Origin: Polytrichum commune
Taxonomy: Eukaryota; Streptophyta; Polytrichopsida; Polytrichales; Polytrichaceae
Assembly: GCA_950295325.1 (NCBI GenBank)
Contig: OX485803.1
Span: forward strand, 36,345,554 to 36,409,553
DNA: 64,000 nucleotides
Direction: 5' to 3'
The notes under the pieces were generated by a model, which did not search any database, had not been told where the DNA came from, and was given only the letters and a program-made list of their open reading frames with translations. Shown one piece after another: positions 27,474-58,519 of the stretch (the stretch's first letter is position 1; the number at the start of each line of letters is the position of its first letter). The position numbers and the translations under genes are program-made.

Positions 27474-30400
27474 ATGAAGGAACCAGGAAATAGTCAAGTC
27501 TCCACTGCCGATCCTGGAAGAAAGAGAAAGAAAAGAAAGGGAGGCACAAGTTTTAGCAATTCAAAACAGAGGAGACGGAGAGAACTGAGGAAGAAGGAGC
27601 AATCCTGTACACAAGGAAGTGAGCAACCAACAGATTTGAGGAAGACGGGCGGAGAGGCAGAGACAGGGACGTCTAGCAGGAACGAGGAACTGGAACGGAT
27701 AGAGGAAGAACGGGAGAAGGGTGGATCACAAGAACAATCGATGGGAGAGAGCGAGCATCGAAGCGATTCCGATTCAAGCGAATATGAGGAGGAGACAAAG
27801 GAGGACTCAATGGGCACAGTAAGTTTGGTTTAGCGTATTATGCACTAGCCTCAGATATACATTTAGGTAATTTACAAGATGGCATTTAATATTTAGTTAT
27901 GTAATGTGATTCTTCATGACCAACATGTTGAATGTTGAAAGCTCTCTTTTTGTTAAAGTTGGTGAGATGGGGATATACAACCGAACCCTCTCGGAAACGA
28001 GAGGGTCAACAATTATGCACCACGAATAGGGTATTGGCTAAGCACGAAGTTGTGCGGGGCCGCCACCTCCCAAACATGGCCCATAGCAAGAAGGCTTTCG
28101 GCCCATTATATTTGGGGGGAAGGTACCTAGGAAATAGAAGAGTTCGAAAATAGATGGAGGTAGTCCACCGTAGCCGACACCAAGGAACCATTGCGGCTAA
28201 CCTAGTTTGTCGTTCGGAGAGAGAAGGGAGGAGGAAACCCTTGCCGACAACCTTGCGGTGTAGTGTCGAATGTGGAAGGAGCATCCACAATCCCATAGCT
28301 CGGAGAAGTTCGGCATAGACAGGTTTGATGTTAAAACATGCATTCTGTTTAAATAAGTGGCCATGTTAGAGCTTTTAGATTTGTAGTTGATAAGCAAGGT
28401 TCAGATTATGACCCTAATAAATGGCCATGCTTGCGGTATCAGATTTGTAGTTGATAAGCAAGGTTCAGATTATGAGCCTAATAAGTGGCCAAGTTAGAGG
28501 TTTCAGATTTGGAGTTGATAAGCAAGGTTCAGATTATGAGCCTAATAAGTGGCCATGTTAGAGGTTTCAGATTTGTAGTTGATAAGCAAGGTTCAGATTA
28601 TGAGCCTAATTAGTGGCCATGTTAGAGGTTTCAGAGTTGTAGTTGATAAGCTAGGTTCAGATTATGAGGGATATAAGTGGCCATGTTTGCGGTTTCAGAT
28701 TTGTAGTTGATAAGCAAGGTTCAGATTATGAGCCTAATAAGTGGCCAAGTGAGAGGTTTCAGATTTGTAGTTGATAGGCTAGGTTCAGATTTTGAGCCTA
28801 ATATGTGGCCATGTAAGAGGGTTCAGATTTCTAGTGTGCAAATTAATTCCAGATTTTGAGTCTAATTTTGAGGTCAAAGAAATAGTTGGACAAGGGGGAA
28901 GGGCATCTCGATTCCGAGAGGGTGGTGCAAGAGGGGTTTTAGTGGGCCGTGTTAAGGTATCGGATTTGTAGTTAATGAGCTAGGTTCAGATTATGAGCCT
29001 AAAATGTGGCCACGTTAGAGGGTTCAGAAATCTAGTATGTAAGCTAATTCCAGATTTCCAGTCTAATTTTGAGGTCAGAGAAATAGTTGGACAAGGGGGA
29101 AGGGCCTCTCGATTCCGAGAGGGTGGTGCAAGAGGGGTTTTAGTGGGCCGTGTTAAGGTATCGGATTTGTAGTTAATGAGCTAGGTTCAGATTTTGAGCC
29201 TAAAATGTGGCCATGTAAGAGGGTTCAGATTTCTAGTGTCTAAGCTAATTCCAGATTTTGAGTCTAATTAGTGGCCATGTTAGAGGTTCCAGAGTTGTAG
29301 TTGATAAGCAAGGTTCAGATTATGAGCATAATAATTGGCCAAGTTAGAGGTTTCAGATTTTGTACTTGATAAGCTAGGTTCAGATTATGAGGAAAAGAAG
29401 TGGCCATGCTTGCGGTATCAGATTTGTAGTTGATAAGAAAGGTTCAGATTATGAGCCTAATTATTCGCCAAGTTAGAGGTTTCAGATTTGGTCTTGATAA
29501 CGGAGGTTCAGATTAGGAGGGATATAAGGTTCAGATTTTGAGCCTAATATGTGGCCATGTAAGAGAGTTCAGATATCTAGTGTGTAAGCTAATTCCAGAT
29601 TTTGAGTCTAATTTTGAGGTCAAAGAAATAGTTGCATAAGGGGGAAGGGCCTCTCGATTCCGAGAGGGTGGGGATAGTGGGATTTTTGGGGGCCAAGTGA
29701 GAGGTTTCAAATTTGTACTTGATAGGCTAGGTTCAGATTTTGAGTCTAATTTTGAGTTCAAAGCAATATTTGGACTGGGGGGGGGCCTCTCGTTTCCAAG
29801 AGGGTGGGGTAAGAGGGGTTTTAGTGGGCCATGTTAAGGTATCAGATTTGTAGTTAATGAGCTAGGTTCATATTATGAGCCTAAAATGTGGCCATGTAAG
29901 AGGGTTCAGATTTCTAGTGTGTAAGCTAATTCCAGTTTTTGAGTCTAATTTTGAGGTCAAAGAAATAGTTGGACAAGGGGAAGGGCCTCTCGATTCCGAG
30001 AGGGTGGTGTAAGAGGGGTTTTAGTGGGCCATATTAAGGTATCAGATTTGTAGTTAATGAGCTAGGTTCAGATTTTAGGCCTAAAATGTGGCCATGTTAG
30101 AGGGTTCAGATTTCTAGTGTGTAAGCTAATTCCAGATTCTCAGTCTAGTTTTGAGGTGCACTAAATATTTGGACAGGGTGGGGGGACCCTCTCGATTCCG
30201 AGAGGGTGGGGATAGTGGGGTCTTAGTGGGCCATGTGTAAGGTTTCAGCTTTGTATTTGATAAGCAAGGTTTTGATTATGAGCCTAATAAGTGGCCATAT
30301 TAGTGGTTTCAGATTTGTAGTTAACGAGCTAGGTTCAGATTTTGAGCCTAATATGTGGCCATGTTAGAGGGTTCAAATTTCTAGTGTGTAAGCTAATTCC

Positions 30401-33400
30401 ATATTTTGAGTCTAGTTTTGAGGTCCACTAAATATTTGGACAGGGGGGGGACCCTCTTGATTCCGAGAGGGTGGGTATAGTGGGGTCTTAGTGGGCCATG
30501 TGTAAGGTTTCAGCTTTGTAATTAATGAGCTTGGTTCAGATTTTGAGCCTAATGTGTGGCCATGTTAGAGGGTTCAGATTTCTACTATATACGTTAAGAT
30601 CAGATTATGAGTCCAAGTTTTAGACCCTCTCGGAAACCAAAGGGTGGGTGTGAGGGGCCCAGGTGGAGTTCTTTGTTGTCAATAGTGGATTCTGATTTGG
30701 AGATATAGTGAATAAGGGGATTTTTCTTGGAATCGACAGGGTGGGTCATCTAGGATTACTGGGGCAGGTTGGAGGTTTCTAATTTTGCAAAGACTATGCT
30801 TTGTTGTGTTTTCTAGTGTCTTAAGGTGTATTCTGTGCATGCAGGCATCGGAGTCTTTGGGTCTTACTATAGCACGGGTGCAATACATGGCGGATGGGGT
30901 TGTTATATTGTCGCCTCCTGAGGCTAGCCATGCGGCTTTGGATGACATCTCACAAGAAGAGGTGTTTGATTCGTTCATCTGATACAAGTGTTCTTGTATT
31001 GTATCAATGCTGCATTGACATTCTGGGTTTAGAGTTCTTTTCTTATGCTTTCTTTCTCTTATGTTGTAGATTGATGTTCCGGCTATACCCGACTGCATAA
31101 GACCTCTTGCTGAGTCGAATCCAGCTGAAGCAGAGTTAACGATTCGTAGATCGCAAAAACAAGACTCCAACACCGTGATTCAGCGGGTTCGATTCAAGCC
31201 TCTAGGGAAGTCTCGTTTCTCAATTCCATTGTGTCGGTTGCGGACTCTTCCTCTTGTTCGGCCAATCAACGACGTTGATGTTTCTCGTTTGGAGAATGAG
31301 TTTGTGATGGGGTATCGTGATGGTGACCGAGCTATGTACGTCTCAGCATACAACAACCTCGATGAGCCTCTTGATGTCTCCGATGACATCAAGTCCTCCT
31401 GGAGTCCATTATGGCAGGAGGCCAATGCAGAGTTTGATGCCATACTCCAAAAAGACTCCGACCTTGCTTACTTTGTTGGCAAAATGTTCTTCGTGTGGGA
31501 AGGGAACCATCGATTGACAGCTTGGTGGAGGCATATCAACAATCATCACCCGTTGGACAAAAATTGGCATATATGGGCTGATTGTATTGTGGTGGATGCA
31601 AGAAATTGCACCGCTCTCTTTCTTAATGCTATAAATGACATCAACTGGTGAGTTCAACATTTAATGTTGTTGATCGTCTCTTTTGTTTGTTCGCATTTTC
31701 TCCTCTAACATTTTATTTGTCTAGGTCCACGGAGCATGACCATGTTAAGGACAACCTCCCCGCCAAGTTACTTCGCATTCGCACGTTTGGAAAGATGAGG
31801 CTAGAGGAGTTCAAAGACCTCCTTTCCGTTTCGGACTACAAGATGTGTGAGTCCAAGATGGAGAAGAGTCCTACTTGGTATCCCCTGACATTAGATGTCT
31901 TCGTCAAGTTCTTATACAAGGTAAATTTTGTGTACATTTTCCACTCCCATCCTTCTCCCACGTCTATGTGCGCTTCTTATCCTTATTTTTGTTTTTTTTC
32001 AGAGGGAGATATCCAACGCGGCTGATACCGCGGCAAGGTTATATCATGAGGCTACTCCGGAGGCTCAGAGAACTGCTACCGATATTTGGAATGCTATGAC
32101 AAAAGCCCAAGATAGGTTGATCAAAACCATTCGTTCTCGGAACTTTGAGAAGTTCATTTCCGTTGCCCACAAGGACAACGGTGATGATTTCTTCAACGAG
32201 GTGTCTCTCCTATCTTTGTTTTTTGGTTTAGTTTTTCATCCTCCTATGAATTTTGCCGTGCTTGTTTTATCTTTATTTTACTTATCTTTCTTCTATGTGG
32301 CAAATTGACCGTCATTTCTCCGCTTTCCTGGTCACTGATATGACAATTGAGAAACTTCAAAAGGTGGCCACCACACATGTAGATTCCCACTTCAAGGCCA
32401 AGTGGCTACGTTGGTGGAACTCTCCTCCCGAGGTCAAGGATAAGAATAGATTTCCCTCCGATCTCCCTCTTAGGGAGAAAGTCCTCGACAACTGGCTCAA
32501 CAAAGCTTCTTTCTGGGCTCAGGTGCATCCTTAGTATTTTGACTCCGTTTCTTCCTTTCCATTCTACATGTGGGATTCGAGTGGGTCATGCCAAGGTTTC
32601 GGATTTCAAGGGGATAGTGGGGTATTAGTGGGCCATGTTGAGGTTTCGGATTTGAATTAGATAAGCTAAATTCAGATCATGAGTCGAATAAGTGGCCAGG
32701 TTGATGTCTCAGATTTCTAGTTAATAAGCTAAGTTCAGATTCTCAGCCGAATAACTGGCCTGGTTAAGGTTTCAGTTTTCTAGAATATAAGCTAAGTTCT
32801 GATTTTGAGTCGTATAAGTGGCCATGTTTGAGGTTTCAGACTTCTAGTTGATAAGCAAGGTTCAGATTATGAGTCTCATAAGTGGCCAGTTTGAGGTTTC
32901 AGATTTGTAGTTGATAAGCAAGGTTCTGATTATGAGCCTAATAAGTGGCCATGTTTGAGGTTTCAGACTTCTAGTTGATAAGCAAGGTTCAGATTATGAG
33001 TCTCATAAGTGGCCAGTTTGAGGTTTCAGATTTGTAGTTGATAAGCAAGGTTCTGATTATGAGCCTAATAAGTGGCCAAGTTAGAGGTTTCAGATTTGTA
33101 CTTGATAAACTATGTTCAGATTTTGAGCCTAATATGTGGCCATATTAGAGGGTTCAGATTTCTAGTATGTAATCTAATTCCAGATTTTCAGTCTAGTTTT
33201 GAGGTCCACTAAATACTTGGCCAAGGGGGGGGGACCCTCTCGATTCCGAGAGGGTGGGGATATTGGGGTTTTTGTGGGCCATGTGTAAGGTCTCAGATTT
33301 GTAGTTCATAAGGAAGGTTCAGATTATGAGCCTAATAAGTGGCCATGTTAGTGGTTTCAGATTACTCGTTAATAAGCTAGGTTCAGATTATGAGCCTAAT

Positions 33401-36400
33401 AAGTGGCCAAGTTAGAGGTTTCAGATTTGTACTTGATAAGCTAGGTTCAATTTTTGAGCCTAATATGTGGCCATATTAGAGGGTTCAGATTTCTAGTATG
33501 TAATCTAATTCCAGATTTTTAGTCTAGTTTTGAGGTCCACTAAATATTTGGACAGGGGGGGGGACCCTCTCGATTCCGAGAGGATTAGGTCAGTGGGGTT
33601 TTAGCGGGCCATGTTTAAGGTTTCAGCTTTGTATTTGATAATCAATGTTTTGATTATGAGCCTAATAAGTGGCCATGTTAGAGGGTTCAGATTTCTAGTA
33701 TGTAAGCTAATTCCAGATTTTCAGTCTAATTTTGAGGTCAAAGAAATATTTGGACAGGGGGGGGGGCCTCTCGTTTCCGAGAGGGTGGGGTAAGAGGGGT
33801 TTTAGTGGGCCATGTTAAGGTGTCAGATTTGTAGTTAATGAGCTAGGTTTAGATTATGAGGCTAATATGTGGCCATGTTAAGGTGTCAGATTTGTAGTTA
33901 ATGAGCTAGGTTTAGATTATGAGGCTAATATGTGGCCATGTTAGAGGGTTCAGAATTCTAGTATGTAAGCTAATTCCAGATTCTCTGTCTAGTTTTGAGG
34001 TCCACTAAATATTTGGCCAAGGGGGGGGGGACCCTCTCGATTCCGAGAGGGTGGGGATAGTGGGGTTTTAGTGGGCCATGTGTAAGGTCTCAGATTTGTA
34101 GTTAATGAGCTAGGTTCAGATTATGAGCCTAATAAGTGGCCAAGTTTGAGGTTTCAGATTTTTGGTTGATAAGCTAGGTTCAGATTATGAGGGAAAGAAG
34201 TGGCCATGTTAGAGGTTTCAGATTTGTAGTTGATAAGCAAGGTTCAGATTATGAGCCTAATAAGTGGCCAAGTTAGAGGTTTCATATTTGTACTTGATAA
34301 GCTAGGTTCAGATTATGAGGGAAATAAGTGGCCATGTTAGTGGTTTCAGATTTGTAGTTAATAAGCTAGGTCCAGATTATGAACCTAATAAGTGGCCAAG
34401 TTAGAGGTTTCAGATTTTTAGTTGATAAGCTAGGTTCAGATTATGAGGGAAAGAAGTGGCCATGTTAGAGGTTTCAGATTTGTAGTTGATAAGCAAGGTT
34501 CAGATTATGAGGCTAATAAGTGGCCAAGTTAGAGGTTTCAGATTTGTACTTGATAAGCTAGGTTCAGATTATGAGGGAAATAAGTGGCCATGTTTGCGGT
34601 TTCAGATTTGTAGTTGATAAGCTAGGTTTAGATTATGAGTCTAATATGTGGCCATGTTTGAGGTTTCAGATTTGTAGTTGATAAGCTAAATTCAAATTTT
34701 CAGCCTAATAAGTGGCCAGGTTAAGGTTTCAGAGTTCTAGTTAATAAGCTAAGTTCATATTTCTAATGTCTTAAGGGGCCATGTTAGAGGTCTATGTTGT
34801 CAAAATTGAATTTTGTTTTTCATATATGGTTCAAGTTAGAGTGGAGTATGTTATCAAGTACCATCCCCTTACTATTTTCTTTGTTGTCATAGTTGGAGAA
34901 GGGGGTTGAGGGTGAGATAGCTTCATTTGAAAATGAGTGTTCCGTTGAAATCGATTGGAGTTCCGCGGAGGATATTTATCAACCGGCCAATTATGTTGAG
35001 CATTGGAGGCTGAATCTTTGGGACAAGGCATTTCTGGTTTATTTTGACGACAAGGGAGATTTGAAATTTATCAAAGGCCTTGATCTCATGGATTTTGAGG
35101 AAGGCCCCATAGCAATCAAACGCGTCGCTTACCGGTAATATTTTGAGTTTTCTTTTATTTCATATAGTTTTTGTTTCATTTCAATCCCGCCACCTTTTTT
35201 GTTTATGATGTTCTTCATTTTACAGGTTCATCCACCGTGAGCTCGTTGTGAAAAATGCTTTGCCTTCTTCGTGCTTGCCAACCTTCCTTGTAGATTGGGT
35301 CGATGTCAACTCCGATCTTTGTGTGTATACGCCCGTGCAAGTTTCCAAGTTTTCGGAGTCTCACTTGCAGGCTGGGGGATGGTACTTGGATTGTTCTGGA
35401 GGATTTGTGCATGAGGTAGAGAAGCCTCTTTTTTCCACCCTTGTGAGTAGTGCTCCCGAGGTGACATTTGTCCCCTTTGAGGAGCCCGACATTGTTGAGC
35501 TTCCTCCTCCACCGCCCAAGGCACCAAAGGGAAAGGGAAGAGCTAGGAATACCGGCACTCAATCAACTCGGTCTGCCTCAAAGACCCTTGTTCAACCACC
35601 CACCCTTTTACAGAGTCCACCTAGTACTCCCTCCGTTGCTCCATCAGTTGCTCCATCAGCTGCCCCCTCTATCACTCCATCCGCATCTCGTCCACAAACT
35701 ATTGCTACTCCTTCACACAGTGGCACTTCTCTACTCTCCTTGCCTCGCAAGAGGAAGGCCGCCCTCTTGGATACGAGTGCCACCTCTTCGGATTCCCCTA
35801 CCACGCTTGCCCTCATCGAAAATGTGGACATGGTACAACTCATGCTCGATTCCGACCTTGCAGGAGGTCCCCTCCCGGCATATACGCGCATACAAGAGTT
35901 CATTGCCAAGGTTTGTATGTTTTCTTTTGGCATTCATCAGACTCATTTCCGTTTGGTTTGCTTTTGTTTTTCCTTCTCCATTTTTTCTCATGAATTTTTC
36001 ATTGCAGGCCGGGGAAGGTCGCTCCCGTGTGAACACCTCCTCTACATTTCACAAGGGCCTCGATTTACTCTTCGCGGACATTTCTGAAAATTTGCCGGTG
36101 CCCAACATCTCCACGGATGTTCCTGAATGGAACAAGCTCCATGATTCTTACTATGAGTGTATTTTTGCATTTGCAAAATCTAACCTCTATGATCATGGCG
36201 TCCTTGTCCTTGTCCATTGTGCAAGTGCAAGTGTTTCTAGGATGGTTTTCGATTGGGCACACACTTACGACTTCTACGTCGCCGAAGATTGGTTCGGAAT
36301 GGTTGATTTGGACCTCCAATCTCCGGTGGACCCCTCTGGAGTGGTAAGCAACTATCCATCTCCTAGTCCATTTTTGTTTTGTTTTTCATTTTACTTATTC

Positions 36401-37198
36401 CGATTCTTATGAAATCGTTGTCATTTTTTCAGACTCGCAAATTCAATATCAAGGTTCTTGTTCGTGCTAACTCCGTTCTGAAAGTGCGACCGGAGGCCGC
36501 CCAGGAGTATGGCTACTACCTCCAGCGAGATGGATGGTTGAATGCTTTCACCGATGAGAAGAGCCAGACAATGCGCAGTGATGGGATACCCTGGAGAGGT
36601 GCTCGCGAAAAGCATCAAGTTTTTTTTTCTATCATTTTTGCTACTCTCACCGATAAGAATGATGTTATTATGGACTGGCAATGTGGTGTAGGTGGTTCGA
36701 TTACAGCGTGTCGCTCCATTGAGCGGCATATTGTGGCCCTTGAGAGTGACCCAGTGATTTTTAATGCGATACTACTCCCCATGCGTGAAAACCAACCTTC
36801 GCGACCTCCCCGCTCAAATGCCACACCGTCCACCTCTATGTTTGATCCTCCTAAGAAGATGACCAAACGCGCATTCGGTTTTCTTTGTGCGTAAGTTTTA
36901 TTTCTATGTTTTCTCATATTTACGTTCTTGTCATTTTCCCATCTTTGTGTGTTATTTTGTTTCTAATCTTATTGCTTATTGGTTCAGAGCGCCAAGGGAG
37001 AACGCATGTATGAGTTCGAGTCCTTCCAAGACGTTCGAGCTCCCAACCTATGCTGCTAGTTTTGCCAATCTTTTAGCGGAAGCTCCGTCTCCACCTCCTA
37101 GTCGCATCCGGCCTTTCAACAAACTAATAGAGGATTTTCTAGACATAGAGGCCGAGGAGGGTGAGGATAGTGATAGACATGGTAGTCCTAGTTCTTGA
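27474..37198 (+). CDS. Gene A: ParB-like motif plus degenerate DNA-methyltransferase-like fold (multi-exon)
   Basis: Modelled exons: 27474-27818, 30845-30961, 31070-31647, 31725-31920, 32003-32200, about 32352-32522 (acceptor uncertain), 34893-35134, 35226-35910, 36008-36343, 36433-36890, 36988-37198. Splice phases agree at every junction checked. Exon 1 is Lys/Arg-rich (GRKRKKRKGG, QRRRRELRKK), a likely nuclear localisation signal; its link to exon 2 across 3 kb of satellite is the weakest join. Exon 3 carries WEGNHRLTAW (31497-31526), like the [D/E]GxHR signature of ParB/sulfiredoxin-type domains. A Pro/Ser/Thr linker follows in exon 8. Exons 9-10 look like an N6/N4 DNA methyltransferase in permuted order: LLFADISENLP where a (D/N/S)PP(Y/W) motif IV is expected, then NDVIMDWQCGVGGSITA (about 36650-36710) resembling motif I, followed by HIVALESD. 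Lacking the PP(Y/W) residues it is probably not a methyltransferase; DNA binding is likelier. Divergent promoter shared with the MULE gene. Confidence 0.6.
27985..30640. repeat. Hairpin-bearing satellite array 1 (gene A intron 1)
   Basis: Diverged tandem repeats of about 64 bp (GGTTTCAGATTTGTAGTTGA, TAAGCAAGGTTCAGATTATG, AGCCTAATAAGTGGCCATGT), mixed with longer variants that include a stem-loop CCCTCTCG-ATTC-CGAGAGGG. Stem-loops occur near 27988 (GAAA loop), 28907, 29108, 29652, 29787, 29987, 30189, 30451 and 30624. A few carry compensated or single changes. The array fills most of the first intron of gene A. Confidence 0.85.
32580..34790. repeat. Hairpin-bearing satellite array 2 (gene A intron 6)
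   Basis: Same satellite family as array 1, with 64-bp-type units from about 32580 to 34790 and stem-loops CCTCTCG...CGAGAGG near 33236, 33563, 33766 and 34033. It occupies nearly the whole 2.37-kb intron between exons ending at 32522 and starting at 34893. Confidence 0.85.
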
Positions 37199-37849
37199 CT
37201 ACGCCTCGGACCTCCATTTTGTTTGTATTGATTTTACTTTATAAGTTTATTTCTTCAATTTTTATGTGGCTATTGCAAACCTCATTCAATCCCTTATTGA
37301 AGTTGGTTGGTGTTTGATTTCAATTCTCTAGATAGGTTGGGTGGACGGGTTGAGTATACTTTGAAGGTTGTCTACTTTAGTTGTATTTGAGAGATGCTAA
37401 GGTTGTGAGTGACTTTGAATGTTTGTGTTGAACTTTAACTCTTGGCCACATTCCATACCGCTTGAATGTTTGTGTTGAACTTTAACTCTTGGCCACATTC
37501 CATACCGCTTGAATGTTTGTGTAAGGCTTAACTCATATGTTCAATTGATGATGTAAGCCCTAATTTAATATAAACGTATTCGAAACCTAGACTATAAGAT
37601 GTTTGATAACAAACACTATCTTCCACGCCTATAGGTTCGGTTGGTTCACCGACCAAGGTTCGGTTATTATTTACACGGGAATGGGGTGGCTTTTTCGACA
37701 AATTGAAGACAAACTATCACTAAATTCCACGGAAATAGGCACGACTTCCCCTAAAATATTCCAACAAATTTGAAAATCTCCGCTCTCCAATCTCCGCTCT
37801 CCGCTCTCCGCTCTCTGAGCTATGCTCACATACTTGAGTTTCCCGTTTC
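37199..37849. other. Intergenic DNA with a 47-bp tandem duplication
   Basis: No gene. A 47-bp unit beginning CTTGAATGTTTGTGTTGAAC is duplicated at about 37411-37515. A short CCGCTCT microsatellite lies at about 37785-37815. The rest is unremarkable AT-rich sequence between gene A's stop and the end of the LRR block. Confidence 0.6.
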
Positions 37850-43109: not shown

Positions 43110-46100
43110 TTACCCATCTCCATCTTCCGCTTCATATCCATTCTCGGCGTCATTTTCCGCAGCTGCAATACGTGCCAAGTTGTCTTTGGCAAAATCTATA
43201 TGTTTTTGGGGGATGGTCATTGCTTCTGTGTTGGAACCTTTGCGCGGCTTCCAAACACAAAGTATAGTATCCGTGTTTATCCAAACCGGTGTGTACGCTA
43301 AGTCCACTGTCCACTTAAAATTCTTTTTGGTGTCCCAACCTAAATAAGTGCGGAGCACGTTGTGGTCTTTAGTGCTTGGACGACAATATTCCACCTCAAT
43401 TTGACGAAAGTTGGGGCTAGTTCGAACAAAATTGGGTAAAGACAATGCTTTTACCAACCAAATTGGCTTGGGATGCTCCTCATCCCCTGCTCGTACGAGG
43501 ACCAAATACCCTTCATGGCAATCAACACCTACACGAAACGACGGTGCCGATCGATTGCGGGCAGGGCCAACGTAATGCTCGTCCATTGCGAACTCTTCAC
43601 GAACGTCTCCATTGCTGAAAAACATAGTATCGGACTCGACAACCGTCAAACGACTTTGTGGCCAAAATCCTTGTGTCAAAGTTGTACGGGTGTCGCCACC
43701 AAGTGTCATCAAGGCTGAGCGAATGCGATCCCAATACGCGATCAACGGTTCATGGGTATCTCTAACACGTCTTGTGATGTCCTCCTCGCACAACTCTTTC
43801 CAATATTCAATGAATCCAGATATGCCTTTGATGATTTCCGGCCCATTCCTCATGGGTTCGGGTTTGCAAGGCTTTGGTTCCCCATCCGGGACCAAACATT
43901 TCCCATCATTGTCTTGACGCCATACGAGTATATCATCATCCGGGCCCCAATTAGGAGATGTGCACAAAAGCTTGAATTGCATGGCCGGGAGACCATCGTC
44001 CCTCATATAAAATCGGAATTGTTGTGCTTTGGTATGCCCCACCAAACGGTCCCCTCCCTTCAACATGTACGGCTTGATGAAGGCCTTGAAATCTGGTACT
44101 TCCTCAATCAAGTGCGGAATTACTGGCATATGGTCCAAATCCATATACGATTTCATAAGAAGAGGTATGGTTGGAAAATCTTCTTCATGCAACTTCATGC
44201 TCCACCGTCCGAATGATGCATCAATGTCGTCGTGTGTATGTCCCACCATCAAGAAAGACACAAACACCTCCTTAAAGATTCCTTTCGCCACGAGCAATGA
44301 CCAAAAACAAAATACGTATCGACATTTGTTGTCCTTCGTACAATTATCAAGTTGAACGTGGAGAGTTGGAGGCAATGGTTTTGCACAAATGGGCTCTCCG
44401 GGTGGTTATGGCAATGACGACATACAAACCTCCTTCCCCGCAAGCACTGCCTCATAAAGGGATGTGGTTCCACAACCATCAAAAAGTGCACGGGAAGAAT
44501 GTACCGGTGGCTTCTCAAGATCGCGCAACAGTTTTGCAAATGAACCCACCGTGTGGTTAGCATCCCCATGGTAAAAATCCAAACCATAATGGGCATACTT
44601 TACGTCCCCATGGCCGTGGGCAATCATACCTGGAAAAAACAAACGATGCGTGACCAAAATAATCAAATAACCACTAAACGGATGTATGGAGTTGGACATT
44701 TGCCAAACACACCCAAGAAAATTGGATAGACTTTAAACACGTAATTGTGATTTCATACAAACTTGTGACAGCTACGGGCAACTTGAAGAGACCATCCGTG
44801 GCCTTTATTTTGCGTGCATAACAAGGGCATGCGGTTTTGGCGTGGTCCATTTTATCATGGATGACTGTTAGAACCTCTGTGGGCCTCATTATGGATAGAG
44901 CACGATTCTTATAGTAATCTTGATGGTGTGCCTCTTGATTGTTGACATGTTCAATATATTTTTTCTAGTGTCTGGAATGAGATTCAGTGCCTATGGGGTG
45001 GGCGTCTCGAAGACCTTTGTATTTTTCACACGTCGTACATCTAGCGAACTTGTCCCCGGGTATTTTCATAATGTATTCCGCAAACTGCTGGTTTTTAATC
45101 ACACTCAACTTGGACAAAGAAATGGGCCCACATCCCGCTATGCGACCCACTTCATTGATGTCCGTTAAGATGTTCTTCCATTTTGTGCCCGTGGGCAACA
45201 CCATTTGAACAACCTTCTCCCCTGACGACAATGTCCTCGTCTTGTGGGGCATTGCATCGGCCAATGGCACTATGATGGTGGATAGTGTCGCGGACGCTTG
45301 CAGTGTAGCCTCCCTAGGTTTCTTTGTGCCCGAGTTGCCATGAAATCGAGAGCGGCGACCCAACGATGAATACTTTCGAAACCTATAAAAGTCAGCCTTG
45401 AAGATGGCGTGGATGGTATACCACGCTGTACAACACACATCAACATTCTCAAATGTCACCACCTTATGCCCATGGGTATCAAGGTGCAAATTTCTGTGGA
45501 CCTCGAGTTTCTTAGCCGACCTCATACGAAAATCCGCAAGCCACATCTCTTGACGCAGAGATCTAATTTTCTCCCGCGGAAAAAATTGGCAACATTTCCT
45601 CGCGCAACAATCCTTGCCGGACACTAGACGGATAGATTCGTCCCCCAAAAGCCGATCCCGTTGACGCTCCTTATCTCCGCGAGGCACACGGTTTGAATCA
45701 TATCTACGGAGGCCTTTGCGAGGACGTGTTGTGGCCAACAAAGCTAATTGTGTTTGCTTATGCCGCCGCTCATGATCCCACAAACTCACTTCCTCATGTA
45801 GAACTTGACGAAGCGGCCATCGACGCAAGGAAAATCTCCATGTCACTGGGACCTCTACCGGAAGCAAAGAGTTCAAGATGCACACGCCAACATCATCGAG
45901 ACCTAGGGCGTTGGCATCGACACAATCACGGGGATTGGAGTTTCTACATATGCCATCTGCCACCGGGACACCAACCTCGTTGAGTAGAACGACATCAAGG
46001 CCAACCCATTGCTCCCTCCCGAAACCGGCACACAACGGAATGTCATCGTGGTCATCTCCGGAATGCAGAGATTGTTCGTGGACTTCCAAAGATTCATGGG

Positions 46101-46239
46101 AGGATGTATCCACAAACACCCCCCTTACGTTTGGCACACCATTACTATCTGCCGACGGGGAAGACAGTTCACATTCAGCATCGGATGACGATGCATACGT
46201 CGACAACTCCAATGAACTATCACCCACATGCAACGCCAT
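43110..46239 (-). CDS. DUF7869-type transposase-like gene, interrupted by one TAG
   Basis: Starts at ATG 46239 (MALHVGDSSLEL) and reads in one frame through a Cys-rich N-terminal half (CCARKCCQFF, DVCCTAWYTIH) to CTTCEKYKGL. A TAG at 44967-44965 interrupts, but the same frame continues with KKYIEHVNNQEAHHQDYY, through MRPTEVLTVIHDKMDHAKT. Introns follow at about 44754-44632 (phase 1, acceptor TTTTTTCCAG|GT) and about 44429-44397. Later exons carry GMIAHGHGD, then LPPTLHVQLDNCTKDNKCRY and SFLMVGHTHDDIDASFGRWS, the block I associate with DUF7869 proteins, which have an RNase-H-like, transposase-type fold. Stop TAA at 43110. The TAG suggests a dead or decaying copy. It lies inside the large intron of the resistance gene, in the same orientation. 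Confidence 0.7.
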
Positions 46240-46439
46240 ACAGCCTAGACCAACTACCAAGAAATGATCAACCCAACCACCACCGCAATGCATACAAGAG
46301 AGGATAGAATATATGTGGAGATAAATGGCCCAAAATTGACAAACAAATTTTGGTGCACCATTGGAGAACCTCACGCACAAAGACGAACGCGCGTCCCAAA
46401 AAAACGTTTTAAGCATACGTCTAGGTTGTTCACTAATGT

Positions 46440-47374
46440 AAACAATACATGGACAAAGAGGAGAACACTCGTTAGTCGTCCAGGAGGGCCCTACTGTTCG
46501 GACCAGCGCCTGTCCCCATACAACCGACGACGAAATCAGAAATCCGAGAACGCCACATGCATTTACGAACGCGCGTTCGTGACCTCAGTAACTTCTTCAT
46601 GTACATCCGGCGGCCTTCGAGATCCCTCAAATGAGAGCACCCTGAGGAATATCGGTTTTGTAGGTCAAAGTACCATACTGACTTAGGAACCTGCGCGATA
46701 TACTATCACAAGAGAACACTTGTCCATACGCACAAAATTAGTAAATCTGCAGATGATGCCTGAATCAACTCCAACAATATTTTGAACACTGAGCACCTCC
46801 ATATTGTGAATTTGATTATGTTGACTTTTGCGTACCTACCCATTTACGAACGGACGTTCGTAAATGGGTGCGACCCCGTGTTCACATCCTTCACGGACGA
46901 GCGATGAGCATATTTTTCTTGCTATTCTGTGTTCGTAAATTACTGCCATACTGATGTGCATGAATGAAGATGTGTTGCTGGATGCGTAGACAATAATGAC
47001 ATGTATTTACGAACGAACGTTCGTAAATTCCCGACCATCAGGTACCAATAGATACGGGTCAAATAAGTATGTATGATCCTCGAAGGCATATTTACGAACG
47101 CACGTTCGTAAATGACTGTCATGGATTAAGTGCATGTGACTAACCATATGAGTACCTCAATCCAGAACATGCTCTCATGTGGGATTTACGAACGCACGTT
47201 CGTAAATTACCGACCATCAGGTACCAATAGACAAGGGTCAAATATGTATGTATGAACCTCGAAGGCATATTTACGAACGCACGTTCGTAAATAAATGCCA
47301 TGGATGATGTGCATGTGACTATCCATGAGTAGCTCAATCCAAAACATGATCTCCTGTGGGATTTACGAACGCAC
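46440..47374 (+). mobile_element. Truncated 3' end of a gene-B-type element with palindromes
   Basis: 46440-46700 matches 55950-56160 (shared GAGGGxCCTxCTGxTCGGxC, CAGCGCC, the palindrome, then ACATCC(A/G)G(T/C)GGCCTT). Similarity resumes at about 46820-46890 against 56325-56400 (GATTATGTT, TGCGACCC, TGT(T/C)CAC). It carries palindromes at about 46562, 46851, 47007, 47090, 47184 and 47270, and a half site at 47362 cut by the assembly gap. It is therefore a second, mostly deleted copy of the unit containing gene B. Confidence 0.65.
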
Positions 47375-47574
47375 NNNNNNNNNNNNNNNNNNNNNNNNNN
47401 NNNNNNNNNNNNNNNNNNNNNNNNNNNNNNNNNNNNNNNNNNNNNNNNNNNNNNNNNNNNNNNNNNNNNNNNNNNNNNNNNNNNNNNNNNNNNNNNNNNN
47501 NNNNNNNNNNNNNNNNNNNNNNNNNNNNNNNNNNNNNNNNNNNNNNNNNNNNNNNNNNNNNNNNNNNNNNNNNN
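47375..47574. other. Assembly gap (200 N)
   Basis: Exactly 200 N. The left flank stops within a palindrome half site (TTTACGAACGCAC), the right flank starts inside the LTR-like repeat of the gag-type element. True length and adjacency here are unknown. Confidence 0.99.
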
Positions 47575-50500
47575 ATCTCACATGGACGTTACCCAGGCAT
47601 TCGGAACAATGAGGATCTCTTCCTACTGCACTCCGGAGGTGGCCTTCAATCCGGAATCCTTACTGATCCGGACCTCTCCTTCTCCGTCCGACGGATTGGT
47701 CCGGCTACCTCTTCCTTGGATTCTACTCAATCTGAGCTAACTGGGCGATCCGTACCACTAATCCGGATAGGTCCGTCTAAAGACGGTGGGACCTCTTCAG
47801 AAGATCAGATTGGCGTAAGTCCGGATCCCTTCCGGATCTCACCCAATCTTCCCAGCGGCTATCCCACCTAGACGTTACCCAACCTACCGGATTAGTGAGG
47901 TTTCCCTCCCACTACACTCAGAGAGGATCTACAAGGCGATAACCGGATCTGATCTGGGTCTCCTCTCTCATGTCCTATCCGGAACTCCTATCCTTCATGC
48001 TCTCTCTCTCTCTTCCACTAACGATCTCCGGATCATTCACACAAACAACAATAAAGAGAAGTCAAGGAGTGAGAAGCAAAGACATTTATTCAGAATAGGA
48101 GTAATCGCAATACAACAATTGAGAAGGAACCCTTCTCAAGCTCCTTATTCAGCCTTAAGTAGAGGCTCAAAAATCCCTAAACTGAGGGCGGCGGCCCAAG
48201 CGGCCGCCGCTTAAGAAAACTCTAACTACCCCCGGTCTCCCGGATTTCCCGGATCCAGATCCGGGTTTTCCGCTGACACTACCAAAGGAAAATTTAATTA
48301 ATCGTCTTCAAAAACTCCTAAGTCCTACCTGCCTACCTCCATTCTGCCTAACTAATCTAGCTACTCCCCTAACTAAGAAGACCGGTGCTTCTTCGGAGCC
48401 GATCCCTCCTTTGAGTGACTCCCTAACCCGCTGACGGCGGATGAGCCCCCTGCCGGCGATGCCTTCTGCAGCCGCGTGAGCATCCTCCTCATGTTCGGAG
48501 ACGGAGCAACCTCGTCCTCCGAATCCGCTGCCCTCTCAGTCCGTGGGGTAGCGGTCCCTGGTGTTCCGGAGACTGTCCCCATTCGGATGCTTCGGACTGG
48601 AGAAGGATCGCTTCCGGTGCCCTGCTCCAGATTCCGTCCGCCCGAGAGTGAAGCCGTCCGCGGATCCCTGTTGGAGGCCGCCCTTGAGGGTGGCGGAGGA
48701 AAGGGACTCACCATTTGGCAGTCCCGTGGAGACGATGGCGAGGCGTGGGTCATAGGGGCCTTGCCCCTACTCGGGGTTGCCTCCCGGTCGGAAGTCTGGT
48801 GCCGGATCGGCGTCCTAGCCCTATCCGGAGTCCGGGACCTATCCGAGTTCTGCGGCACAGGGGACTAGCCCCTTCCGGATCGGACCGACCCGGTGCTTTT
48901 CCGCCTCACCTGGGGAGAACGGACCCTTTCCGGAGCCCCTCCGGAACTACCAGGCCGAGAGCCTCCTCCTTGCTGGCTGGGTCCTGCAGAGGCCGGCGGA
49001 TTCTGAACCAGGGCTACTTCACCAACCACCTCGTAGAGGGTTCCGGTTGGTGACCCTAGCGGACCCGGATAGAGCACCCTCCGCGGTGTTCCGCTTGGCG
49101 GGACCACCCTCTGGATTTCCGCCAGGAGATTTTTCATCGTTCGTGAATACTTCACGAGGATGGGGAGGGTCTGCCTGGCGGAAGCGGGATCTCCGGACTC
49201 CATCATCCGGTCGTAGAGATGTGCCTTGTTAACGATCTCCGCCGGATGACCCACCAGTTCCCGGATCCGGCTGAAGAGCACTGCCTGCTCCGCATGGTAC
49301 TTCCGGATCTCCTCGCTCTTCTGACTCAGCTCCTGAGTCATGGCCGCTACCTGTGCGGTGAGGTGGGCGTTCTCCGTTTTGGCCTGCTCCAGCTCCTTCC
49401 GGTCCGCCCTCTTTGCCAATTCCCGGAGAATGTTTCCGGGTCCGCAGTCGTCCAGAGCATGGTTCGCCCCCTTGACGATGTGCTCCAGTCGGTAATACTG
49501 GGTCTTGAGGTCCTCCATCCCCTCCTGGAACCGTTTGAATGGATTCTCCGAAAAGTCCCAAGCGGATAGGTCCACATTCCGCCATGGGGTCTCCCGGCTG
49601 GGTCCGGCTTCCGGATGTTGGTGAGGGGGAGGGGGAGAGAGTGGCCTCGAGACGGTTGGCGGCAGGCTTCCGGGTGACGAGGGAGGTGCTTCCGGAAGAA
49701 TAGGGTCGCTGGAGGTCTCCGTCTCGACGTCTCCGGCTTCCGGAAGCAACTTGTAGGTGACCTCATCCGCCGCTATTGTGAGCAGGTCCTCCTCCTCTGC
49801 CGTGATGCAGTCGAAATGCTGGTAGAGGTGCAAAATGAAGGGGGAGAGGAAGGAGGGTTTCCAGCCAATATGGGGGAGGGCCCGCCCCACTATCTCCTGG
49901 ATAATCAGCCCCCAGTTCACCGGCCGGACTCCGGACATGGCACCGAACAGCGTGTTAGCCATGGTAAGGCTGATCCGCTTCGGCTTGTCCGGGTTAAGGA
50001 TAGGCAGGAGGAATTCCAACACCCTCCTTTCCCTTAGGTTCCCTTAGGTTCCGGCAGTTCCCGGGGTGGAAGCCGTCCTTCGGATCCGCGTCCCCTCTAA
50101 ATTTTCCGGCGAACAAGCCGTCGCGGCGGCCAGCCCATCCTTCTGTAATCCCCCGAGGAAACCCGTAGACCCTGTTCCAAATATCCGGAGTCCAGTGTTC
50201 CGGATCTCTCCTCTTTGTCCCTAACCACTGATTTCCTCTCTCAAACTTAAACTCTCGGAGAGTATCTTCGGCTCGGAGGTTCCAGGGTTTGGCTAGCAAC
50301 CCTGCGCAGCCCATAACCCGAAGATCCTCCGCGAGCTCCTGTAGCTCCCTATCCTCCCTCGGAATTGCAGGGATGAGGGCTTTGAGCGGAACCGGGATAG
50401 GTTCCCTCTGATCCTCTTCCCGTGCTTCCGGCATTTTCCTCTTCTCTCAATTCCCGGCTCAATCCTCTCTTCCGGATTCCTTCCCTTCCGTCTAATTGCC

Positions 50501-50990
50501 ACAGAGTCCCGGCAAGCCCACTGCCGGTGACTGAAAAGTGCAGAGTCCCAGCAATCCCACTGCTGGCGGCTCGAAAGAATTAACACCTCACCACTCGTTC
50601 TCTCAACAGGTTGCCTTTTTCAGAAAAAAGTGGGAGGGAGAAGGAAGGGACCCTTAAATATCCTTCCTCCCTCTTCCTTCCCCTGTTACCGTTTGGTTTA
50701 ACGGAAAACGGTTACCAACCGTTTTCCGGCGGTTCTCACCAACGGTTTTACTAACATTTTTACCAACGGCTTTCTTTTCCCCCAACCGTCATAAGGCCCG
50801 TTATAACCGCCACTTCCGGGCCGTTGGGTAATCTTGGCGCGTCCGTTACTTGGTCCGGACCAATGGTTTGGACCATGATTACATGGTCCGCCCATCCTAT
50901 TTGACGGACCGGTCATAGTACTTATTTAGAGTCGTTTTACCGCACAAGGCGGGGTTAGAATACTCTATTTCCTAGTACCATTAATTTTGT
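47575..50990 (-). mobile_element. gag-type retroelement, minus strand
   Basis: The minus strand runs from a TATA-like GATATTTAAGGG (about 50653-50664) through the gag-like gene (50434-48373) into an LTR-like region starting at 48278 (TGTCAGCGG) and extending to the gap. It carries a CTACTTAAGGCTGAATAAGG region like the plus-strand copy at 11.3-13.8 kb. No pol domain and no clear 5' copy of the terminal repeat were seen between 50435 and 51000. It interrupts a region of palindromic repeats and contains none, so it inserted later. Confidence 0.6.
48373..50434 (-). pseudogene. gag-like gene with a 10-bp duplication and an in-frame TAG
   Basis: The N-terminus begins at 50434 (MPEAREEDQREPIP) and includes WTPDIWNRVYGFPRG. 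An exact 10-bp tandem duplication (CCCTTAGGTT, 50031-50050) shifts the frame; beyond it the main frame reads VLEFLLPILNPDKPKR, a Pro/Ser-rich linker, a coiled coil around ELAKRADRKELEQAKTENAH, then RELVGHPAEIVNKAHLYDRM. A TAG at 48867-48865 interrupts, with the frame continuing as SPVPQNSDRSRTPDRARTP to KKHRSS and a final TAG. In the other copy the codon at the interrupting TAG is CAA (Gln). The protein resembles retroelement gag in layout only; no zinc knuckle is seen. Confidence 0.65.
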
Positions 50991-51707
50991 CCTAATAGAC
51001 CCTATTATCCTCAGATAAGCAAGGTAAAATATGGAAATTGAATCCGTATTTCCGTATTTCCGTCGAATTTGGACTCCCACAGCATACCCACCTCCATTTA
51101 CGAACGCTCGTTCGTAAATGGACATACACTGCATACCGAACCTCCATTTACGAACGTGCGTTCGTAAATACGCACTCCACGTTCTTTGAAATGATCTATA
51201 TTTATGAACGCACGTTCGTAAATATACTCAAAATATCACTCAGAAGGAACCTTAACTTTAATATGAACCTTTATGAATATCTAAAGTACAAATATAATTT
51301 TGCGAACACCAATAAGACAAATCACATGTACTTACGAAAGATAAATCAACCAAATGTCCGAAAAGATAGACCAAATGGACATACTTACGAACGCACGTTC
51401 GTAAATGAATCCAAATCTATAAAACCCATATCTTTTATGAACGATCGTTCGTAAAAATAACCAAATATATTACAAACACATTCATGACGAGTAGTCTCTT
51501 TGATCTTCATATCTCTTACGAACACTCGTTCGTAAACTCAATACTAAAAATTTATATGATCTTGCAACCCCTCATTTACGAACGAACGTTCGTAAATATA
51601 ATTACATCAATTGCAAAGACGCATTAACACTGCGTAGTCTGTGGGATATGCATGTCACTTACGAACGTTCGTTCGTAAAGTCACTAATTGTTTATATTCT
51701 GTTGCAG
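50991..51707 (+). repeat. Palindrome cluster upstream of gene B
   Basis: Eight palindromic sites at about 51097, 51148, 51201, 51383, 51434, 51515, 51575 and 51659, spaced 50-180 bp. Arms are TTTACGAACG and CGTTCGTAAA around a variable dinucleotide. Because an acceptor (TTGCAG) ends at 51707 immediately before the ATG of gene B, this stretch is likely 5' untranslated region or an intron of gene B. Confidence 0.85.
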
Positions 51708-54700
51708 ATGGCAAGATCAAGCAAAAGCACCATTGAGATGTTCGCGGTGAAGGTCGATGGCCTCCCAGAGTCGGTGTTAGACGATAACGGCAACGACAAC
51801 TATGTCCCCAAGGAAGACTTCATGGGGGAGTGGACGGCACTGCCAGAGAAGATCGGGGACGGCCTCTTCTGCATGCGCTTCACCTACGAGCTGGAGACAA
51901 GACCGGACCAACCCGAACAGTGGGTTCAAATGAAGACGTGGGAGATAGAGTCCATAGAGGCCCAGGGGGAGTATGTAATTCTGGACATGAAGAACAAGAA
52001 GGATCATATCAACCTCTTGTTGCATTTTCAGAAAAATACCTTCTCCTACCAATACGCCACCAATAACGTAGCGGAAGATGCCAAGCACTTCGACCTGGAC
52101 GGCCTCTTCTCCAAATATGCGTTGAGCCCATACTGGACGGCAAGGAAATTGACCGCCCTTGCATTCAACATCTCCAAATACAACAGTGTGGTCACTGAGG
52201 CAAACAAGAAGAAGAAGAGCCCCAGGAAACCATCCACATCAGGGGCAGGAGGATCTAGAAGTGCACCCAGGCCTATGCCTTCCGCTAGCAGGGCGACGGA
52301 GGGCCCCAGTAGACACTCCACGCCATCGAAGAGGATAAGGGAGGAGATGGAGAAATCGGGAGTAACGGAGACCGCAGAGGTGACCTCGCCTGTCGTAATG
52401 CCCACCCCCTTGAAAAAGGATGAGAACCCTGACGCTGTGAAGGCCACGAGGATCCTTCGAGACTTCAACAACTACTCGAAGGATTGCTGGCCCATGGGAC
52501 GCCACTTCACATTCAACGTGGACTGCTTCAAGTGCGAGATGTCCCCCAACAAATGGGTGGTTCGCTCTCGCGAAAGCGGTGGTGTGAAGTGGCAGATAAA
52601 TAATCTAATGAACAACGTGAAGTGGGACAGGCAGACCGTCTGCGTCATGCCGAAAGGGCTGACATCCCGTCCGACGGAGAAGGACTGGCCACGGATCCAG
52701 AATGGAGAGTTCTGGATCATAGACGGCCAACACAGCTTGGAGGTGTCCCAGATAATTCTCAAGGACGACAACTTCCAGCATGAGCTGAAGGAGGACTTGC
52801 GCTACTGGAAGGCGTTCTTGGTGTGGTCGGACGATTGGGACAAGCTGCGGAAGATATCCACCTTCCTCAACTCCGGCAACAAGATCAAGGCCTTCGAGGG
52901 GTCGTGGGCAGCCAACATAGTGGCTGCAAGGGACGTCTGGGTCGCCCACGGGTGCCCCCCTAAAGAAAGGGAGAACGCGAAGACGCCGTCTCCACAATGG
53001 AAGGTGAGTTTACGAACGAACGTTCGTAAATATCTTTGACATTCAAAATTTCAAGTTCTTTGACATTCAAACTTACGAACGTGCGTTCGTATTTTGCGCG
53101 TTTCTGATGTATTTTTTGCTGCAGGCATTCTGCGACGCGATGGTGGACAAGTTCTCCTCCATCGATATGAAGTCTACAACAACCAAGTCTGTCCTGGAGC
53201 TCAAGGGTGAGCTCCGCCTCATCTGTTGCAACAGGGACACTTGGGAGTTGTGGACACAATTTTTTGATGCGCACAGCTCGGGCGATCTGGTCAACCCCGA
53301 CACCGAGGAGAAGTACAGCGCGGAGAAGACCGGGGAGGCCCCTCCACTACTGAGGGAGTTCTTCAGGTCCCTTCAAGGGTTAACAGAGTCCGAGTTGCAG
53401 AGGTGCGCGGTGCATCTTCTTGGGAACACAGTGGGAAGAACCATCCCATACCCGAAGATATTTTTGAAGAGGCCAAGACACAAGCCCGGCACGTATTCCA
53501 TCAAGGAATGGTGCGAACACCGCAAGCTGAAGACTGCTGCAATGAGGGAGTTGAGCGCCCTAATACCAGAGTACGCACTCATCCTAGCCGACGGGGACAT
53601 TAATTGGGCCAGCTGGAAGATGTTCAAGGTCGACTACAACATCTCCGGACCCTCAATGCGTTGTCTTGTCAAGGATCACGCCTCCATTTTGAAGCAGAAG
53701 GGGAACAAGAGGACAAAGAAAACCGAGACGGATCCCCAGGAGGTGGAGCAATACATAAGCTTTTTGGCGCGGAAGAGGTTGGCCACATTCGAAGGAGTGG
53801 CTAGATTTTGTCTGGTGACAACCGGAGTGGAGAGGGTGACATTTTCCAAGTGGGACCGGACCATGAGCAGGGCCGAGGTGAGGGAGGATCGACGGGGGTG
53901 CCCATTTGCCCTGATCGATTTCAGGGGGATCCCCGGTGCGTCGAGGCAGGGGGGGAAGGACATACCTTTCTACGACCCCTTCATGACCAAGTTCAAGGAG
54001 CACAAGTCTCCGGACATGAGGGAGCCTCACGTTTGGCTGTGGATAGTGGAGCAGGAAAAGCTCTCTGCTGTAGTCGACCTGTACGAGAAGATGATCAAAT
54101 TCGAGTACAGCATCTTCCACAGCACTTACGTGCCCGCCAAGACGGAAGGGATCGTGGCCATCAACGAGGCCAGGGGAAACAAACAGGTGGGGGCGGTCAG
54201 CCTCGTCTTCTTGACGTACAACGCGCTTCGGAATGGGCGAGCCCCTGTCAAGGCGAACACTACGTTCAAGAAGATCTACAGCATCCCCCATCCCCCTCCC
54301 AAGGATCTGCTACAGGAGACCTTGTACACTGTCTTCCCGGCGATGGAACTCAGGTTGGAGTTCTACGTCTCCGTTTTGCAGAGCGTGGCAATAAGCGGAG
54401 AGACCGTGTACAACGTTTGTGGCGGCAGCAAGTTCATGTACGCTGCGATGGTAAGCTCTCCAACTAATATTTACGAACGCTCGTTCGTAAAGTTCACCTC
54501 AACTTGTCTTGGGTTTTGATGACATTGTTTCTCGTCGTTGATGTTTACGAACGCACGTTCATATATTCTAACGTATTTGCTTGAATCTCAGATGTTGGGG
54601 CTGGTCGTCAACAGCTTCATTGAAGCCATCGACGAGGAGGACTTCCACGTGCACAGGGCGAAGGCCTCCACGATGGACCTGGAGGACATGTCCCTCCCGA

Positions 54701-56193
54701 GGACGGACATCAACATGCCCGTCGACGAAGGCATGCCCGCCATGGAGACGGACGATGACGAGCCCACGCCCTCCTACAACGTCGAGGCGATCCTCCGATC
54801 CTTGGACGTCACTCCTCTCCGCATTTTGGCGCCGTCGGGAAATCCATCCGATGTGCAAGGGACTCCGGGTGGATACACGGGGTCGTCGGCGGGGACAACC
54901 CAAGATGTCCTCCCCGTGAGAGCGTCTGGAGCGGAGGCATTCGGCACTCCCGGGGGATGCTCGACATCCGTGTCGCCCAGGCCGATCGTGGTTCCCAAGA
55001 TGGAGAACCTCGACCTTCTGGACCAACGGTCCCGACCGACGTTGGACCAGTACCGCAACACGAGGCGGAGGATGAAGAAGACCCCCTACGTGGAGCTGCC
55101 TCCGGGGGCAATCATCGAGGTCTCCGATGAGGACGAGGGCGACATGGAGATCATGGTCGAGCTGGGGGTAGACTTTGACAAAAACAAGAGGGTCAAAGAG
55201 GAGGCGTTGTCCGTCGCCGAGCTTAACGCCAAGCTCGAGCAAAAGATGAAGGAGGACATGGCGAAGGCGGCAGAGGAGAATGCCAAGAAAATGTTCGCAA
55301 TTCAGGAGGAGCTGAGGCAGTCGAACGAGAAGACGGACGCCATCCTCGCCATGCTCTAGCGTATGTAGAGCTTCTCGGTGCCCCCCCAGCCGGCCTACCC
55401 CTTCCCTGGAGGATACCCCTCCCAATCCCCTCCACCGGGCATGTTCACCGGAGGGCCTTCCCGCCAGCAGGCGCCCCACCCTACGCCTGTTGGCACTCCT
55501 CCGCCACCAGAGGTTCCCTCGACCACCTCCCACGATGCTGTGGCGGCGGCCATCCAGGAGGACGAGGATTTACGAACGCGCGTTCGTGAATCTTCAGGTC
55601 CTCCAGTCCTCACCCCTCCCCCTTCAAGGGTAGGACTGCCCTCATACACCGATGCGTCGTCTTTCACCGTCGTCCCCAGGGTAGTAGACAGACATGGCGA
55701 TGACTCTACGCGACACACTGGCATGGTCATTGTGGAGGACACGCAGGGGAGCCCCAATGACGCACCAGGGGTGCATGGGATGGACGTGGAAGAAACCCAT
55801 GCGGCGTGGATGGAGGATGTCAGGATGGACGCGCTCGACCTGGGCGCCGAGGAAGAAGACGCGCTGCGCATCCAGGCGACACAGGCCTCTCAACCGGAGC
55901 GTGAGGCAGAGGCCATGGAGACAGAGGCGGCTGCAGCTGTGGAGGTTACGAACGCGCGTTCGTTAATCGTTGAGGAGGGACCTGCTGCTCGGTCCAGCGC
56001 CGCTGCCCCTCCCCCCGATGACGAGGTAACTCTCCTCTGAGAATACCATTTTTTTACGAACGCGCGTTCGTAACCTCTCTAACATCGCGATGTTTTTCTC
56101 TTCATCGACATCCAGTGGCCTTGCGAGAGCCCTCTTCAGCGGTCCCCCTTAGGGCCGAACAGTTTTGTACGACACGGCATCATTTTGCCTTAG
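51708..56193 (+). CDS. Gene B: ParB-like DGQH motif plus degenerate DNA-methyltransferase-like fold
   Basis: Exons 51708-53003, 53125-54450, 54592-56025 and possibly 56116-56193, all phase 0 (AAG|GTGAGT...CTGCAG, ATG|GTAAGC...CTCAG). Exon 1 starts MARSSKSTIEM; after a Ser/Pro/Lys linker comes FWIIDGQHSLEVS (52711-52749), matching the DGQHR-type signature of ParB/sulfiredoxin-like domains, followed by FLNSGNKIKAFEGSW. Exon 2 continues with CPFALIDFRGIP (about 53900-53935) where methyltransferases have motif IV, VWLWIVEQEK, and GETVYNVCGGSKF (54400-54438) like motif I, so the fold is the permuted type with catalytic residues missing. Exon 3 has a Glu/Lys coiled coil (LNAKLEQKMKEDMAKAAEE). Two TAGs (55357, 55366) interrupt, yet the frame stays open to 56025. 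Each intron carries palindromes just inside the donor, and two more palindromes lie in coding sequence (55568, 55945). Possibly a recent pseudogene or a protein ending at 55359. Same architecture as gene A, little sequence identity. Confidence 0.65.
53004..53124 (+). other. Gene B intron 1 with two palindromes
   Basis: Donor GTGAGT is followed within a few bases by a palindrome (about 53009); a second lies at about 53072; acceptor TTGCTGCAG. The 121-bp intron is thus largely made of palindromic sites. Confidence 0.75.
54451..54591 (+). other. Gene B intron 2 with two palindromes
   Basis: Donor GTAAGC, palindromes at about 54471 and 54544 (the second diverged in its right arm), acceptor GAATCTCAG. 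Confidence 0.75.
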
Positions 56194-58489: not shown

Positions 58490-58519
58490 CCACAAAAAAA
58501 AATAGTGGGTCGGACTAGT

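Follow-up and report, generated by a model that had tools for sequence, protein, structure and literature searches.

A 64,000-nucleotide stretch of Polytrichum commune contig OX485803.1 (the window) carries two genes, A and B, that are accessory genes of two different high-copy DNA transposon families. At least one of the two apparently fuses a ParB-like domain to a methyltransferase whose altered active site seems to be preserved by selection. A new observation is that each element contains a palindrome of its own in many copies. A first-pass annotation of the window had proposed that A and B represent an ancient eukaryotic family. That the two form a host gene pair is a reading we reject because of the copy number, defined ends and target duplications of the sequences that contain them. 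The six short motifs on which that proposal was built are all present in open frames, in the order GxH, motif IV-like, motif I-like: WEGNHRLTAW (31496-31525), FADISENLP (36071-36097) and DWQCGVGGSI (36673-36702) in gene A, and IIDGQHSLEVS (52716-52748), ALIDFRGIP (53908-53934) and NVCGGSKF (54412-54435) in gene B. The catalytic sequence (D/N/S)PP(Y/W) is absent at motif IV of both genes, also as proposed. Searches were run across the 408-Mb eukaryotic genome, nearly all of which lies in seven contigs of 42-78 Mb.

Two transposon families and their accessory genes

Element edges were defined by comparing other copies with the window, and clean edges were obtained for both elements (coordinates of elements, duplications and palindromes are unstranded). 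Transposon A spans 15.5 kb (22380-37844), has the ends GGACGACACTTGTATGTGAGC...CATACTTGAGTTTCCC, and is inserted in leucine-rich-repeat sequence; homology to paralogues stops at its right edge. It is flanked by the target duplication GTTTCCAAGT (left copy 22370-22379, right copy 37845-37854). Both ends and a 10-bp duplication were found in all three copies in which both ends were read, the other two duplications being GGTAAGGCGT and ATAAAATTAA; in a fourth, diverged copy no left end could be located. Mutator-like elements (MULEs) make target duplications of 9-11 bp, and the 10-bp duplications of these three copies of element A fit that range. Two transposase-like open reading frames (ORFs; 23498-25045 and 25026-27350, together 23498-27350 on the minus strand) are divergent from gene A. 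A SWIM-like CxC..CxH was seen by eye in the first of them, and neither gave any Pfam match, to a MULE transposase profile or otherwise. Among the matches listed, a gene A exon in divergent orientation lies 3-30 kb from 43 of 58 transposase-like ORFs, compared with 2/58 and 0/58 in shifted controls, a count that used 67 of 150 exon rows.

Transposon B spans 16.2 kb (42705-58910) and has the inverted ends AACACTATATTCG with the 4-bp target duplication AAAG. Duplications of 4 bp flank all four copies read (CTAA, AGTG and CTAT in the other three). Sola1 elements make 4-bp target duplications, and element B agrees with this in each of the four copies. Its transposase side consists of a DUF7869 ORF (PF25273, Pfam E=2e-37) and a further ORF (together 43110-46584, minus strand), divergent from gene B. 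DUF7869 is the sole Pfam detection on that side, and a literature search on DUF7869 returned no paper. The DUF7869 gene is divergent and 4-16 kb away in 59 of the 95 gene B copies listed, mostly near 9.9 kb, and shifted controls gave 1/95 and 0/95.

Both accessory genes are abundant. For the gene A exon that carries the ParB-like block, the best 150 of 1252 first-look candidate matches were scored and are 62-100% identical; the DNA pattern for WEGNHR has 102 exact genome matches (44 forward, 58 reverse) and its control none. For gene B exon 2, queried from 53122, one codon upstream of the exon, the best 95 of 1158 first-look candidate matches were scored at 84-100% identity, and 79 of these 95 copies have no stop.

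The gene spans given in the first-pass annotation need revision, as both genes lie within larger transposons and the assignable exons of gene A begin at 31070. All splice sites of the two genes are predicted from sequence. In gene A (plus strand) the exon with the ParB-like block (31070-31647; EGNHR at 31499-31513) is followed by predicted middle exons at 31725-31920, 32003-32200, 32352-32522, 34893-35134 and 35226-35910 (span 31725-35910), which form a single continuous frame once joined. The exon with motif IV (36008-36343; DISENLP, or DIPENLP in the relatives read) and the exon with motif I (36433-36888; DWQCGVGGS and the following acidic strand, ALESDP) come next. In three A relatives (L030, L037, L039) motif I is split by an intron that the window copy does not have. 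Minisatellites of 64 bp occupy 28224-30621 and 32571-34814, around and inside gene A introns. Gene B (plus strand) comprises exon 1 (51708-53003), with the ParB/DGQHR-like block DGQHS at 52722-52736, exon 2 (53125-54450), which extends from the methyltransferase-like motif IV (DFRGIP) to motif I (NVCGGSKF), and exon 3 (54592-55359), where the window copy has two TAG stops (55357, 55366) at positions where the frame stays open in all three distinct copies compared.

Domains of the gene A and gene B proteins

Profile searches support descent of the gene A domain from a beta-class amino-methyltransferase with altered catalytic residues. In the PDB, DpnA was the sole match of the spliced gene A profile (two entries, E=0.06). 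A PHROG methyltransferase was matched by all five members of the profile (best 1.6e-4), and Pfam N6_N4_Mtase by just one of the five (E=0.19); the window copy alone falls below the Pfam threshold for PF01555. A Pfam scan of the genome revealed family C, which is homologous to gene A in all main regions and whose 577-aa ORF scores 32.5 bits against PF01555 over the whole domain in one copy and 35.3 bits over the last quarter in another (cut-off 26.7). Further gene A relatives, families D, E and F, were found after family C. A joint profile of A and C-F (eight sequences) matched DpnA at E=4.4e-9 and CcrM at E=1.4e-4, the CcrM match spanning the domain. Family C had no match among phages, and three scans of viral contigs for relatives of genes A and B gave no close relative and one methyltransferase fragment (L045, 30% over 43 residues). 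Clear PF01555 methyltransferases occur on small contigs (C10:4592-5212 and C12:29682-30278; L054, L055) that are possibly bacterial contamination.

At motif IV gene A lacks the catalytic (D/N/S)PP(Y/F/W) sequence, with DISE in the window copy and DIPE in the relatives read. The motif reads DIPENLP in A (DISENLP in the window), DIPYGMP or DIPDGMP in C, DIPENLP in D, DLPEGLP in E, DVPEDLP in F and DFRGIPG in B, so that D[ILV]P[ED] describes five of the six families (A, C, D, E and F), the exceptions within them being the DISE of the window copy of A and the DIPY of one of two C copies. This acidic residue, shared in the position of the tyrosine, favours a change of role over decay. Motif I reads DWQCGVGGS in A, DLSVGTGAS or DLFVGTGAS in C, DVNAGVGMS in D, DVAAATGMN in E, DLTASTGII in F and NVCGGSKF in B. 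Ratios of nonsynonymous to synonymous substitution rates (dN/dS) were estimated by the Nei-Gojobori method and are rough, as several dS values exceed 1. Most comparisons gave low values. The ratios are 0.10-0.24 for the gene A ParB exon (three comparisons), and 0.17 and 0.19 for the motif IV exon against diverged copies. DNA binding rather than modification, as the first-pass annotation had suggested, is a plausible role for the gene A protein.

The [D/E]GNHR block is common to families A, C, D, E and F, with some variation: the single family C copy read has GNHP, and two A copies have GNHH (L041) and CNYR (L038). A PHROG ParB-like family was matched weakly, by 3 of 12 members (best E 0.11), and the tentative ParB reading of gene A comes from this conserved motif block. 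The proposed pairing of a ParB-like and a methyltransferase-like domain is partly supported. In gene A the motifs exceed a chance resemblance, with profiles pointing to a methyltransferase and the shared motif to a ParB-like block N-terminal to it; in gene B the motifs were recognized by eye without profile support. None of seven gene B members matched PF01555 in Pfam, and no methyltransferase appeared among the PDB or PHROG matches. Both gene B domain calls are therefore readings of motifs by eye. Four other gene B copies read N[VI]FGGSKF, nearer to canonical motif I than the window copy, and the junction of exons 2 and 3 by eye resembles motif I plus the next strand. The exons of gene B are mostly intact and under purifying selection, with dN/dS of 0.012-0.046 for the ParB part (four of six comparisons; dS was saturated in the other two), 0.046-0.191 for the linker (six comparisons) and 0.063-0.160 for the methyltransferase part (eight comparisons). 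Two single-sequence AlphaFold2 models had mean predicted local distance difference test (pLDDT) scores of 37.4 and 29.8, too low for fold searches.

Palindromes and other features of the elements

Element B contains 25 palindromes TTTACGAACGNNCGTTCGTAAA (at most four mismatches) between 46562 and 56510, with no site elsewhere in the window and none in 20 shuffles. All lie in the interior, no closer than 2.4 kb to an element end. Relative to gene B, four lie in introns, two in the ORF just past its stop, which is read as part of the gene in other copies, and 19 outside; the site at 46562 falls at the end of ORF 44965-46584. Information content is 1.0-2.0 bits in the arms, 0.3-0.5 in the centre and mostly 0.0-0.4 in the flanks (0.9 and 0.7 beside the core), and CpG is kept at 96 of 100 CpG positions across the 25 sites. 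Genome-wide there are 2909 exact copies of TTTACGAACGNNCGTTCGTAAA and none of its reversed control, and three further B copies carry the palindrome in their right-hand pieces. A deleted derivative of element B (C1:639070-648560; L043, L044) retains the ends together with 26 exact palindromes; in the parts read, which leave out 641.5-646.1 kb, it has no gene B exon and just a 235-bp piece of a transposase-side ORF. This derivative accounts for a dense cluster of palindromes at C1:640 kb that was considered as a new family, a reading now rejected.

Element A contains 13 palindromes of a different sequence, ACCCTCTCGGNNCCGAGAGGGT (at most five mismatches), between 27985 and 34052, none in assigned exons and most among the minisatellites. 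A relative of A whose ParB exon is 65% identical (L029) has no site of ACCCTCTCGGNNCCGAGAGGGT but 28 of AGGCCTCGGATCCGAGGCCT, and in both A and L029 the palindrome core is better conserved than its flanks. Among eight other pieces of gene A relatives, of 4.0-4.5 kb, ACCCTCTCGGNNCCGAGAGGGT is present in four (L034, L036, L040, L041). The minisatellite regions of element A have a low CpG ratio (0.22-0.35), although the palindromes there keep their CpGs.

Element B also carries a NIF (FCP1/SCP-like phosphatase) gene (56625-57404, plus strand; Pfam PF03031, E=1.8e-15). Its HAD motif is DLNGVL, with the second Asp replaced, and the gene lies within the part conserved in three other B copies. The leucine-rich-repeat sequence, of very similar repeats on the minus strand (20392-22379 and 37845-42704), is interrupted by element A and abuts element B; the strand opposite is open for 1007 codons (39194-42217). 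An ORF at 2668-3234 (minus strand) by eye resembles the small element A ORF 22770-23336 and is perhaps a remnant of a related element. The 610-aa ORF 7992-9821 (minus strand) has weak kinase-like similarity (APH, E=2.5e-4, below the cut-off).

A possible role for the accessory proteins

Our tentative proposal, which we hold at somewhat less than even confidence, is that an accessory protein with a ParB-like domain and an altered methyltransferase domain binds the palindromes of its own element and counters silencing or activates transcription. Such a protein would combine a beta-class amino-methyltransferase fold with a ParB/Srx-like domain, as the sequence indicates for A and as we presume for B. 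With the changed active site DNA methylation would no longer be expected, and the methyltransferase fold would serve as a DNA-binding or dimerisation module, a role analogous to that of METTL14 for METTL3. Binding to the many copies of the palindrome in introns and intergenic DNA would cover the element, and this coverage may counter host silencing or turn on element transcription. The transposon context, the methyltransferase ancestry of A, the altered but maintained motif IV, the palindromes and the precedent of VANC speak in favour of this proposal.

Several results weigh against this proposal. Motif I survives largely intact in A, C and D, so these proteins may bind S-adenosylmethionine. 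The dN/dS of the gene A motif IV exon is 0.56 and 0.97 against close copies, with few changes. The ParB-block profile has no significant match in PDB, Pfam or NCBIfam, and the gene B domain calls find no support in any profile search. In hhalign comparisons of A with B, the DGQHS and DGNHR blocks are paired at just E=0.043 (probability 1.2%), and the methyltransferase parts give nothing sensible. No repeated palindrome was found in the other four of the eight pieces of gene A relatives (L035, L037, L038, L039), and because the palindromes of A and its relatives are located mainly within tandem repeats, their number is inflated.

That no part of gene B has a significant match in profile searches is what would be expected if only gene A belonged to the ParB-methyltransferase family and gene B were unrelated to it. 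We give this appreciable weight, although A and B agree in motif order and gene orientation, both contain internal palindromes, and the N[VI]FGGSKF of other B copies comes closer to canonical motif I. It is unlikely that the palindromes are bound by the transposase and that the ParB-methyltransferase protein assists transposition as a co-factor instead of acting against silencing. The keeping together of the gene pairs in both elements, and the deleted derivative that retains its ends and many palindromes, are consistent with such a co-factor, but the B sites are interior and not subterminal. Active N6A or N4C methylation of the transposon at its own palindromes, as suggested for a protein of Ectocarpus, appears quite improbable: the motif I GxG is kept in A, C and D, the motif IV Asp in all families and DIPY in the one C copy, and binding and modification are both proposed in the available part of the Ectocarpus report (PMC12477816), but A, D, E and F lack the aromatic residue and first proline of DPPY, and B has DFRG and a motif I of GGSK.

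ParB plus methyltransferase accessory proteins have been reported in algal transposons, in the Ectocarpus element Sola1-1_Ec32 and in similar green and red algal proteins (PMC12477816, in the part of the paper available). A literature search on ParB with Chlamydomonas, transposons and DNA methyltransferase returned only that study, and one on ParB with bryophyte and transposon nothing relevant by listing. As described there, the Ectocarpus protein combines a ParB-like domain with an N4C/N6A-type DNA methyltransferase, and its gene runs opposite to that of the transposase within a giant DNA transposon of 21.5 kb, an arrangement similar to the present one. The Ectocarpus protein is predicted to modify DNA, whereas in the present families the change at motif IV is itself conserved, a comparison by description only; and here, unlike in Ectocarpus as that text presents it, the gene occurs in several families within one genome, and there are repeated palindromes. 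Phage fusions of a ParB-CTPase fold to PF01555 offer a likeness in architecture but, according to the text available, are prokaryotic, unlike genes A and B (PMC12704722).

By analogy, VANC may be taken as the closest functional model; it is not known to have a ParB or methyltransferase fold, and anti-silencing of its type is marked by demethylation of elements that bear the motif. VirB of Shigella is a ParB-family protein that is not known to carry a methyltransferase domain. In the accessible part of its source this bacterial plasmid protein is described as offsetting silencing (PMC10653881). VANC, an accessory protein of VANDAL elements in Arabidopsis, binds short motifs in non-coding tandem repeats, and these motifs change with the protein (PMC5735166, in the portion available). 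The elements described here likewise encode accessory proteins and carry short repeated motifs, which differ from one related family to another, in introns and non-coding tandem repeats; unlike our palindromes, the VANC motif is YAGTATTAY, and the available portion of that source does not mention a palindrome (PMC5735166).

A broader and rather unlikely extension of our proposal is that several transposon families in one eukaryotic genome run a ParB-parS-like system, in which a ParB-type protein with a repurposed, catalytically altered methyltransferase would load on element-specific arrays of CpG-containing palindromes and shield the element from silencing, protein and palindrome co-diversifying. 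If the palindromes are the targets, these elements would add to VANC another class of sequence-specific counter-silencing encoded by transposons, one that combines a ParB domain of bacterial type with what was once a DNA methyltransferase, and the matched protein families and palindromes would yield a directly testable recognition code.

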